A stretch of 64,000 bases of DNA, taken from Halanaerobiaceae bacterium (lineage in GTDB: Bacteria; Bacillota; Halanaerobiia; Halanaerobiales; Halarsenatibacteraceae). The position numbers and the translations under genes were made by a program. The stretch covers positions 1 to 64,000 of the forward strand of contig PWEJ01000044.1 in NCBI GenBank assembly GCA_003553485.1, in the 5' to 3' direction. Below the pieces are notes generated by a model that was given only the letters and a program-made list of their open reading frames with translations, did not search any database and was not told where the DNA came from. The stretch's first letter is position 1; every line of letters begins with the position of its first letter. Positions 6,822 to 9,034 of the stretch are shown here, in pieces.

Positions 6822-6850
6822 TTGAAAATCACCTGGCTCTGTGTTATATT
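6822..6850 (+). promoter_or_regulatory. Predicted sigma-A promoter of the dnaD-dnaC-like island
   Basis: Plus strand: TTGAAA (6822-6827), 17-nt spacer, TATATT (6845-6850). It is the only strong plus-strand promoter seen and stands about 70 nt before the first plus-strand gene. An AGAGAGGAG ribosome-binding site follows at about 6902-6910. Confidence 0.75.
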
Positions 6851-6920
6851 TATTATACGAAATTTGGTCTGGCTTTTAAAGTCATTTTTATTAAAGTTTG
6901 TAAGAGAGGAGTTAATATAA

Positions 6921-7679
6921 ATGCCAGAAGATGAAAATCTAGCAACTTATTTGCCTAAACTCTGGCAGAGAAAGACTCTGACAATTACAGAGAAGTACCT
7001 CATAGCTGTGATTTTAACTAAATTATATTCTCCGGCTAAAGCCGACTTTAAAGATATTTTAGAAATCAAACCAAAATCTTTCGCCACCGAAATAAATTTT
7101 AAAAAAAACCAACTAATTTCTCTTTTAATTGAATTAGAAAATAAGAATTGGTTAGAGTTCACTGATAAGGCTGCAGAAAACTTTGCTGCTGAATTACATA
7201 TTAAAGTGAACTTTAACCAATTTTCTGACCGGGAAAGATCTAACCAGTCCAAGCTGATTGGCCAGAGGGCAACTACTCAGGCCAATAATGAAGATATTGT
7301 TGGAGAAGAAAAGGAGACTGCCGAGGAGCTGAGCCAGGAATTGATCAACTGCTGGCAGAATCATTTTCCAGGAAGGTTGCTCACGCCAACAGAATATAAT
7401 CACCTCCTGTCATTTTTAGAGAAGGGGATGGAAATTTTACTAGTAAGAAAGTTGATTGCCTATACTGCCAGGGTTAATCCAGCAAATCCAGTTTCTTATT
7501 TGAAAAAGATTTTAAGCAATTTATTAGAGAATGATATTAAAAGCTGGGTTGATTATCAAAAATCCTATGAGGAGAAATTGCATGATGAGCAAAAACAAAT
7601 TCCAGAAAATAATAGAGGAAAAGAAGCGAGAGAGAAACTCCAGGACGTCGAAGAACTCGAAAAAAAAGGCTGGATCTAA
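6921..7679 (+). CDS. DnaD-domain primosome protein
   Basis: 252 residues. The central and C-terminal part (about 135-215) resembles the DnaD/DnaB_2 domain: LINCWQNHFPGRLLTPTEYNH starts the helical bundle and NPVSYLKKILSNLLEND is the YxxxIL-type motif that in the family binds single-stranded DNA. The N-terminal 85 residues look like a winged-helix domain. DnaD proteins remodel DNA and bring the replicative helicase to origins or restart forks. A DnaC-like ATPase follows at once, supporting a helicase-loading role. The protein ends EELEKKGWI, nearly the same as the end of the third protein of this island. The last 98 nt overlap the next gene in another frame. Confidence 0.8.
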   Translation: MPEDENLATYLPKLWQRKTLTITEKYLIAVILTKLYSPAKADFKDILEIKPKSFATEINFKKNQLISLLIELENKNWLEFTDKAAENFAAELHIKVNFNQFSDRERSNQSKLIGQRATTQANNEDIVGEEKETAEELSQELINCWQNHFPGRLLTPTEYNHLLSFLEKGMEILLVRKLIAYTARVNPANPVSYLKKILSNLLENDIKSWVDYQKSYEEKLHDEQKQIPENNRGKEAREKLQDVEELEKKGWI

Positions 7680-8424
7680 ACCTTCTCGGGAAGAGGTTAT
7701 CAACAACCTTTATAACCATATCATCAAACAGGCTAATATTGACCCCTTATTTGAAGATTGTACCATGGAAAATTATAAAAAAGAGGTATTATCGAGAAAA
7801 AACCAGCAGAAAATAAAGTCATTTTTCAAGTATGTCAAGGGGATTGGTACCGCTATAAAAGTCCCACAATCTGTTTACCTTTTTAGTAAATACCCCGGTA
7901 TCGGTAAGACTCATCTGGCGATAGCAGCACTGAAAAAAGCTGCTCGGGCCATTGCTGAAGAAGAATATAAAAAAAAGGAAACTGTACGACAGGGTCTTTT
8001 CCCTTATCACACCAATTGGGCTCCGGTATATTTTCTTAATGTAGCTGAAGGATTAATGGATATTAGAAATGATTTTTCTGGCAGCGATAAAGATTTCAGC
8101 CAGAGTCGCATCTATCAAAATGTAAAATTGGCCCGACTGGTGGTTTTAGACGATATATTTAACGAAATTCGTTTCTCTCCTTTTGTTTTGGAAACCCTTT
8201 TATACTGGGTGGATTACCGTTTGAAAAACAATCTTGCCACCATATTTACTTCCAACCATAATTTTGAATTATTTTTGACCGAAGAAAGCAGTCCGATATC
8301 TGATGAAAGACTGCAGGCAGTAGCCAGGAATACTGCTTCGAGAGTTAGCAAGATGGTTAAAGGATTTATGATTGCCCTAGAGAGCAGCCCTGAAACAGAT
8401 TACAGGCAGAAGATGAATCCTTAA
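7582..8424 (+). CDS. DnaC/DnaI-like AAA+ helicase-loader ATPase
   Basis: 280 residues. Walker A is YPGIGKTHL near residues 104-112, Walker B is VVLDDIF near 187-193, and a sensor-1-like TSNHNFE follows a helix YWVDYRLKNNLATIF, the layout of DnaC/IstB-type ATPases. The N terminus (about 1-35) is very basic. These proteins load the replicative DnaB-type helicase. The frame is open from 7531, but ATG 7582 has a GAGGAG site 8 nt before it and gives the plausible product; this places 98 nt of it inside the dnaD-like gene. No zinc motif of the DnaI N-terminal domain is visible. Confidence 0.82.
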   Translation: MMSKNKFQKIIEEKKRERNSRTSKNSKKKAGSKPSREEVINNLYNHIIKQANIDPLFEDCTMENYKKEVLSRKNQQKIKSFFKYVKGIGTAIKVPQSVYLFSKYPGIGKTHLAIAALKKAARAIAEEEYKKKETVRQGLFPYHTNWAPVYFLNVAEGLMDIRNDFSGSDKDFSQSRIYQNVKLARLVVLDDIFNEIRFSPFVLETLLYWVDYRLKNNLATIFTSNHNFELFLTEESSPISDERLQAVARNTASRVSKMVKGFMIALESSPETDYRQKMNP

Positions 8425-8474
8425 ATTAGATAGGTTGAGAAAGTTTTCCGGTTATTATAGAGAGGGGGATTTTA

Positions 8475-8528
8475 ATGCAGCGGGGGATTTTAAGGCAGAT
8501 TTTTTCATCGGGTGATTTTCTATGCTAA
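8475..8528 (+). CDS. Possible 17-codon leader ORF overlapping the next gene
   Basis: ATG 8475 stands behind a strong GAGGGGG site (8462-8468) and encodes MQRGILRQIFSSGDFLC before TAA at 8526-8528. Its stop overlaps the start codon of the next gene (ATG 8522), which itself has only a weak ribosome-binding site. This is the geometry of translational coupling. The peptide resembles nothing recognised; whether it is made is inference. Confidence 0.45.
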   Translation: MQRGILRQIFSSGDFLC

Positions 8529-8908
8529 ATCGCACCCAAACAGTGGAAAGGCTAATTTTATTGCGCCAGGATTTGACAGGGGAAAACAATAAGCTCTTTC
8601 CCTGTATTAAGAAAGAACAGACGATTGCCCGGTTGGATAAGTTGCTGTTAGATTTAATAAATCCACCACAGAAAATAGAAAAAAGAATTATTGAAATCAT
8701 CAACCTGGCTCTAAAGGAAAATATCACTCCCGCCACTGCTTCAGTGGCCATTCAAGAGCTAATCAAAGAAAATCAACAGCAGACCTCTACCAGGCGGAAG
8801 AGTTATCAGCAGGTCACTGATTTTGCTTCTAAAAAATCCAAGAAAGAAAAACAGCTTCGCCAGAGTTCCAAACAAATAGAAGAAATGGAAAAGAACGGCT
8901 GGATATAG
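8522..8908 (+). CDS. Unknown protein, third member of the helicase-loading island
   Basis: Not recognised. 128 residues, mostly predicted helical, soluble, charged; the C-terminal third is rich in Lys, Gln and Ser. The final residues, IEEMEKNGWI, match the last residues of the DnaD-like protein two genes upstream (EELEKKGWI), with the stop directly after in both. It has no signal peptide or membrane segment. Its start ATG 8522 overlaps a 17-codon leader ORF with a better ribosome-binding site. It is followed 27 nt later by a terminator, so it closes the island. A role as partner or regulator of the loader ATPase is inference. Confidence 0.7.
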   Translation: MLNRTQTVERLILLRQDLTGENNKLFPCIKKEQTIARLDKLLLDLINPPQKIEKRIIEIINLALKENITPATASVAIQELIKENQQQTSTRRKSYQQVTDFASKKSKKEKQLRQSSKQIEEMEKNGWI

Positions 8909-8935
8909 TTTAATGCTAAAATAGGCAAAAGTAAC

Positions 8936-8965
8936 GCCCCTGGTACTACTGCCAGGGGCTTTTTT
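8936..8965 (+). terminator. Rho-independent terminator of the plus-strand island
   Basis: GCCCCTGG (8936-8943) pairs perfectly with CCAGGGGC (8952-8959) across an 8-nt loop and is followed by six T residues. It lies between convergent transcripts; on the minus strand it may also serve eno, although the T tract there is poor. Confidence 0.92.
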
Positions 8966-9034
8966 GCTCTTTAATCATTTTGTTTTCTAATCATTGTTTT
9001 CTATAATAATGTTTCTTAAAGTTACAACCTTTGC

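Follow-up and report, generated by a model that had tools for sequence, protein, structure and literature searches.

A three-gene cassette on the plus strand of a 64,000-nt stretch of Halanaerobiaceae bacterium DNA (contig PWEJ01000044.1, positions 1 to 64,000; hereafter the window) encodes a DnaD-like protein, a DnaC/DnaI-type AAA+ ATPase and a 128-residue protein without family assignment (P3), and the first and last of these proteins share a short C-terminal tail. Across the genomes of the class, cassette and tail are conserved together, the tails of the two proteins match each other within a genome, dnaI is lost where the cassette resides, and initiators of phages and plasmids carry tails matched to those of their hosts. 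Our reading, to which we give a probability of about 0.55, is that a phage-type cassette replaced DnaI, and that the tail is a peptide docking the DnaD-like protein, P3 and mobile initiators on the new loader. The proposed replacement of DnaI by the cassette and the copying of the tail by mobile elements are new here; neither was foreseen in an earlier reading of the window (the original prediction), which had proposed a common docking site for the two tails.

The shared tail is conserved and matched within genomes

As had been noticed earlier, the DnaD-like protein ends EELEKKGWI (7650–7676, plus strand) and P3 ends EEMEKNGWI (8879–8905, plus strand), with 7 of 9 residues identical. Among the C-termini of 55 minus-strand open reading frames (ORFs) of the window, all of at least 100 residues and some perhaps no genes, the best pair agreed at no more than 5 of 9 positions. 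When the DnaD family was compared with the P3 family by hhalign, only the last 18 columns aligned (E = 0.0011, probability 21%). The tail is also kept in homologues, with an aromatic residue, W or Y, in 21/21 P3 proteins and 20/21 DnaD proteins, and the motif reads roughly as a hydrophobic or aromatic residue, x, K, x, G, W/Y, one residue and the C-terminus. The glycine is less strict, being D or E in six DnaD proteins of family f3 and R in one P3.

Moreover, the choice of W or Y is the same in the DnaD and P3 proteins of one genome in 20/20 pairs, genome G024 being left out because its DnaD has no tail. For example, the paired endings are GWI and GWI in the window, KRGWN and KQGWNQ in G029, YKKGYR and YKNGYR in G033, LYKKGYR and LYNSGYR in G030, and ADGYE and AKGYK in G008. 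Over the nine tail columns, the BLOSUM62 sum averaged 25.9 in pairs from one genome against 15.7 in pairs across genomes, and shuffling of the pairing gave p of about 5e-5, or 3.5e-4 with 12 genus representatives. In G024 (L036, 1372–2040), where the overlap of the DnaD and ATPase genes is down to 8 nt, the shortened DnaD no longer has a tail; tails are still present on P3 and on two plasmid-type initiators encoded in that genome.

The tail was not seen at random on unrelated proteins, and a genome-wide scan of C-termini returned replication-initiation proteins and P3 only. At the DNA level, 12 genomes were searched for K-x-G-Y-(R/S)-stop and 8 for (K/E)-x-G-W-(N/I)-stop; K, or K/E, was thus demanded fifth from the end, and tails such as NNGYR fall outside the scan. 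These gave 94 and 32 matches, respectively. All matches that end frames of at least 100 residues belong to cassette DnaD, P3 or initiators of mobile elements, and the remaining ones end frames of at most 47 codons. For the Y pattern, 70 of the 94 loci were read, the other 24 being 14 TGG-ending matches, 3 with a stop and 7 genes read elsewhere; for the W pattern 30 of 32 were read, the others being one known cassette gene and one TGG-ending match. Chance likeness of the two tails was rejected on the C-terminus scan, the pairing shuffles and the comparison of window C-termini.

The cassette is found where DnaI is missing

Of the 59 class genomes, 21 have the cassette. All 21 belong to one order of salt-loving bacteria, in which they cover 13 genus codes and five (f1, f2, f3, f6 and f7) of the seven family codes; named relatives in this order are Halanaerobiales, mostly metagenome-assembled genomes (MAGs). 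Among the 59 genomes, P3 is confined to these 21. Gene order is constant wherever contigs permit, the cassette being split by contig ends in G001 and G027, and the surroundings vary: an enolase gene is next in the window and in G025, and other genes are next in f3 and f7. Among the best 80 relatives of the ATPase from a collection of 84,980 species, 15 loci have the cassette DnaD, all of them in Halanaerobiales, and 13 of these 15 have a P3 ORF; neither P3 nor the cassette DnaD nor a tail of the pattern was found at the other 65 loci.

DnaI was found in 23/23 genomes of the sister families f4, f5, f8 and f9 and in 0/21 cassette genomes, where G009 and G025 gave hits to prophage DnaC only. The genes run DnaB-like gene, dnaI and helicase gene in the DnaI genomes (4/4 inspected), and in the cassette genomes the helicase gene comes after the DnaB-like gene with no dnaI between (20/20 inspected; the locus of G028 is not in the 20). 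DciA (PF05258) occurs in 12/13 genomes of f10–f11 and in a single cassette genome, G030. Since DnaI, DciA and the cassette fall in separate families, the loader types are nearly exclusive. The best reading is that a phage-type cassette replaced DnaI in most families of the order. A single clade of cassette holders in the helicase tree was not rejected by the approximately unbiased (AU) test (p = 0.17), and hence one replacement and several are indistinguishable. Two genomes of f7, G034 and G036 (L429 and L430; incomplete, 80% and 62%), have neither cassette nor dnaI, with DnaB-like and helicase genes adjacent.

Some mobile initiators carry the tails of their hosts

Nine further DnaD-domain proteins, of prophage or plasmid origin, were found in the cassette genomes besides the chromosomal ones, a count that leaves out a weak hit (G025:C11, 54 bases) and a helix-turn-helix-type protein lacking PF07261 (G030:C178). 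Of the nine, five have a tail of the host type. In Y hosts, two phage initiators related to each other end YYKKGYR and YYEKGYR and lie near what we read as RecT-like and exonuclease-like genes; a RepA_N plasmid-type initiator (L158; PF06970, E = 8e-24) ends LYKAGYR; and in G024, a W host, two plasmid-type initiators beside ParA-like genes end KKNRGWH and, with TPPPGEG following, KQNGWN. No loader or helicase gene was seen in the 4–13 kb stretches fetched around these tail-bearing initiators. Of the four tail-less initiators, two have their own DnaC, one has its own helicase and one has neither in view, giving p = 0.048 (Fisher) for tail against own loader or helicase among the nine. With the tail columns removed, tail-bearing initiators were no nearer to cassette DnaD than tail-less ones, so that the tail is not a mere by-product of kinship.

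A different tail is copied in the DnaI family f4. The DnaB-like protein of that family, as read in G011, has DYKWKDFFIDFDKYKE at its C-terminus, and f4 mobile initiators end almost alike, namely those of prophages L218 and L219 and of the plasmid-type L151, which lies by ParA-like genes; similar endings occur in viral contigs L403–L405, L413, L414, L417 and L418, whose hosts are not established. Outside the tail, similarity of L218, L413 and L417 to the G011 DnaB-like protein was undetectable. An f4 prophage with its own DnaC, L163, is without this tail. The prophage DnaD–DnaC pairs L161, L162 and L163 have C-termini of their own (EYGKYF, NVVWG and FAAMFN), perhaps private loader tails.

A viral contig also holds a 94% identical copy of one of the two phage initiators, ending YYEKGYR, and among viral contigs the tail patterns were met in that known phage (L402, L419) and in L420, a second contig belonging to it, in which the initiator is cut by the contig end. 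Three W-pattern matches in viral contigs end no initiator, and the plasmid-type initiator L204 was sought in these contigs without a find. Bacilli plasmid initiators of the L204 family have very different C-termini (for example L440, 1483–2973, a B. subtilis plasmid); that of a Vagococcus plasmid (L444, 1462–2595) ends VPLYNWLDPENN, which may resemble host DnaD tails.

Candidate partners of the tail and roles of P3

The core of the original prediction, a common docking site, is well supported; it had left the partner between ATPase and helicase, and here the ATPase is favoured, with the DnaB-like protein and the helicase still candidates. Because elements with their own loader skip the tail, and because the copied tail changes with the type of loader, we consider the ATPase the tail's partner at somewhat better than even odds. 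The absence of dnaI from 21/21 cassette genomes suggests that the cassette ATPase loads the replicative helicase. In the proposed mechanism, the ATPase would load the host DnaB-type helicase, the C-terminal peptide of the DnaD-like protein would dock on the ATPase, and phage or plasmid initiators without a loader would borrow that of the host by means of the host version of the peptide. Since the same peptide sits on an unrelated helical domain, P3 would be a second adaptor, gripping the same loader to serve a different site or step, and a role as competitor appears less likely. An adaptor is the simplest reading of P3 because it has a conserved domain of its own and keeps its tail in G024, where DnaD has lost its own.

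Resident plasmids and phages carry copies of the tail, and thus it is probably a transferable address for the host loader. Whether such an address is modular in general, so that the loader in use dictates the peptide for adaptors, plasmids and phages alike, we judge to be evenly balanced; if it is, replacement of the loader would change the address for every replicon in the cell.

Several observations weigh against the proposed reading. When pairing was shuffled within the W or the Y class, the signal was weak (p = 0.07–0.08), so that co-variation of the DnaD and P3 tails is carried mainly by the W/Y split. In the ATPase tree that split is a long branch with full support; it is also found in the helicase tree with a support of 93, and it is not rejected on the tree of the DnaB-like protein (AU p = 0.69, 26 rows), so the trees do not single out the ATPase. 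One DnaD, that of G024, has no tail, and the tail-less initiator of G026 has no loader in view. G030 keeps a DciA-domain gene alongside the cassette, contrary to the exclusion of DciA by DnaC/DnaI. Finally, the DnaB-like protein keeps a W..F.W-type tail where DnaI is gone (L202, L203, L205, L208–L217 and L433–L439), which a simple loader-tail story does not account for. As to G030, the gene is a 94-residue ORF between recF-like and gyrB-like genes (L428; G030:C56, 2763–3047), possibly from contamination of the MAG. A small tree that set the DnaB-like protein of G001 apart from the other W genomes had been taken as a pointer to the ATPase; this argument was withdrawn because the 26-row AU test does not reject a single W clade.

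Concerning P3, a competitor or brake is doubtful but is a serious alternative: its tail would occupy the docking site on the loader and block DnaD-directed loading, as the phage protein 77ORF104 does with DnaI. According to PMC4887207, the last C-terminal residues of 77ORF104 dock on S. aureus DnaI and inhibit it. Such a brake can coexist with the proposed explanation of the tail, and P3 and DnaD do have only the tail in common. However, P3 has a conserved folded domain and keeps its tail in 21/21 genomes, including G024, where a pure competitor would be pointless beside a tail-less DnaD unless the plasmid initiators are its targets.

Another possibility, unlikely in our estimate, is that the two-domain DnaB-like protein receives the tail on its C-terminal DnaD domain and that the loader is recruited indirectly. 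There is precedent for such docking, since in B. subtilis the last eight residues of DnaD, including W229, bind DnaB (PMC13326638). The cassette genomes do have a DnaB-like protein, which in 20 cases was read next to the helicase gene, and the AU test above leaves the W/Y split possible on its tree. Yet the DnaB-like protein is also found where cassette and tail are absent, mobile elements of cassette-less genomes copy its own tail and no ligand of it, and the tail system comes and goes together with the ATPase.

We hold direct docking on the replicative helicase, with DnaD and P3 presenting it to origins, to be quite improbable. The helicase tree does place W and Y types on two sides of the one branch given above, but DnaI genomes share the helicase, and the tail used by their mobile elements is a different one. 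Moreover, host tails are lacking on three prophage initiators that have a DnaC of their own and no helicase gene in the fetched DNA; they speak against helicase docking because the host helicase should still be needed.

The likeness could also be plain inheritance, by duplication or gene conversion between gene ends with no shared partner, and the two window tails are identical at 24 of 30 nucleotides including the stop. This is very unlikely, as the tails persist and match in 13 genus codes whose linkers have diverged, and as they occur on otherwise dissimilar mobile initiators of matching type. Degrons are likewise short and C-terminal, but a degradation signal destabilising both proteins can be nearly dismissed, the tail being confined to replication initiators and P3 and missing from mobile elements with their own loader.

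Relation to known loading systems

In B. subtilis, the DnaB tail (residues 449–472) binds the AAA+ domain of DnaI (PMC13326638). The system proposed here resembles the DnaD–DnaB–DnaI chain of that organism in having DnaD-domain proteins with short C-terminal tails, which there dock on the protein that follows. It differs in using a phage-type ATPase instead of DnaI, in placing a single kind of tail on two proteins, in including P3, for which no counterpart is known, and in having a tail unlike the one on the DnaB-like protein encoded in that genome. According to PMC5109545, domestication of phage dna[CI] loaders in place of dciA has happened at least seven times. Here too a phage-type AAA+ loader is resident and the older loader gene is gone, but dnaI was the resident gene displaced, and a DnaD-like protein and P3 accompany the new loader. 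P3, as proposed, would be like 77ORF104 a small protein gripping the loader by its last residues; unlike that phage inhibitor, it is chromosomal and conserved.

For RepA_N plasmid initiators, PMC5703833 describes a DnaD-like C-terminal domain that is conserved by host genus, gives no agreed cause for this, and reports binding of DnaG primase by pSK41 Rep. L158 is like these initiators by PF06970 and ends ELYKAGYR; beyond that record, a host-type terminal peptide is a candidate reason for host specificity. We found no description of a loader tail shared by host and mobile initiators in the open-licence literature, outside which most subscription papers lie.

If the loader address is modular in this way, it would explain why DnaD-type initiators of plasmids and phages are host-specific, and P3 would be a new kind of chromosomal adaptor, recognisable by its address alone. 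The host specificity of DnaD-like and RepA_N initiators is on record with no agreed mechanism, and a peptide of about nine residues makes it directly testable. Moreover, the class is a natural experiment, with sister families that use DnaI, DciA or the cassette, and in the DnaI and cassette families the mobile elements examined have the tail that matches, except those that come with a loader of their own.

Cassette proteins and gene layout in the window

The DnaD-like protein (252 residues; 6921–7679, plus strand, as are all features below) has 21 homologues including the window protein. Its residues 151–213 (7371–7559) match PF07261 (DnaB_2) with E = 4e-8 and 33.2 bits, above the cut-off of 22; the NCBIfam DnaD domain TIGR01446 gives 18.7 bits, below its cut-off of 24.95, and hence we call the protein DnaD-like only.

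The ATPase has an ORF spanning 7531–8424, and the starts of homologues make 7582 or 7585 the likeliest start (7582–8424, 280 residues). GxGKTH and DD are invariant in the alignment of homologues, which gives it the Walker A and B motifs of an AAA+ protein; Walker A, GIGKT, lies at 7897–7911 with invariant columns G106, G108, K109 and T110. The model, with a predicted local distance difference test (pLDDT) score of 83, has a DnaC/DnaI-like fold, its predicted structure resembling DnaC, IstB and DnaI, and the best structure matches besides IstB are 3ecc, 3ec2, 6qem, 5he8 and 2w58. It matches phrog_50, a DnaC-like loader family, with E = 6e-34, and PF01695 (IstB_IS21) with 17.4 bits, below the cut-off of 24.1; the DnaC and DnaI equivalogs PRK07952 and PRK08939 of NCBIfam stay far under their cut-offs. 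As these curated cut-offs are missed, the ATPase is taken as a divergent DnaC/DnaI relative and no equivalog. From conservation and a modelled helix, its N-terminal helix (7591–7647) is a candidate helicase-binding element.

P3 (8522–8908, 128 residues) is modelled as a helical domain of residues 1–90 (8522–8791; pLDDT block means 80–95), followed by a low-confidence linker and the tail. Family and fold searches with P3 gave no convincing match, the best being E = 1.3 (PDB) and 0.78 (viral) in Foldseek and Z = 5.0 in VIA-align with the helical model, and P3 was found neither in viral contigs nor in plasmids. It would be an undescribed family of initiation proteins. An assignment as YabA was rejected, with PF06156 weakly matched by 3/14 members (best E = 0.013) and the window protein unlisted; weak P3 matches in G017 and G020 lie inside an unrelated 141-residue ORF and were excluded from the counts. 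A search for solved structures relevant to the DnaB-like protein or to two plasmid initiators of Bacilli found none.

The survey of ORFs on both strands confirmed the cassette as the sole plus-strand island of the window. Other plus-strand ORFs of at least 100 residues show 48–100% overlap with minus-strand ORFs; the lowest value, 48%, is that of the ORF at 326–745, which also covers a minus-strand transfer-messenger RNA gene. The promoter predicted at 6822–6850 (TTGAAA, 17 nt, TATATT, with an extended −10 TG) is a consensus match only and stands as the best plus-strand candidate, although such sites are commoner in the window than in shuffled sequence (15 vs 7.4). The intrinsic terminator expected after the third gene was found as a terminator-like stem-loop at 8936–8959, with a 10-pair stem and then TTTTTT.

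The 3′ end of the DnaD-like gene, tail included, overlaps the 5′ end of the ATPase gene by 98 nt (7582–7679), so the DnaD tail is encoded inside this overlap. In the other genomes with both genes on one contig, one excepted, the overlap is 80–104 nt, lengths that depend on the start codons we chose (L031–L050). The ATPase residues encoded in the overlap include a K/S-rich stretch of low predicted confidence.

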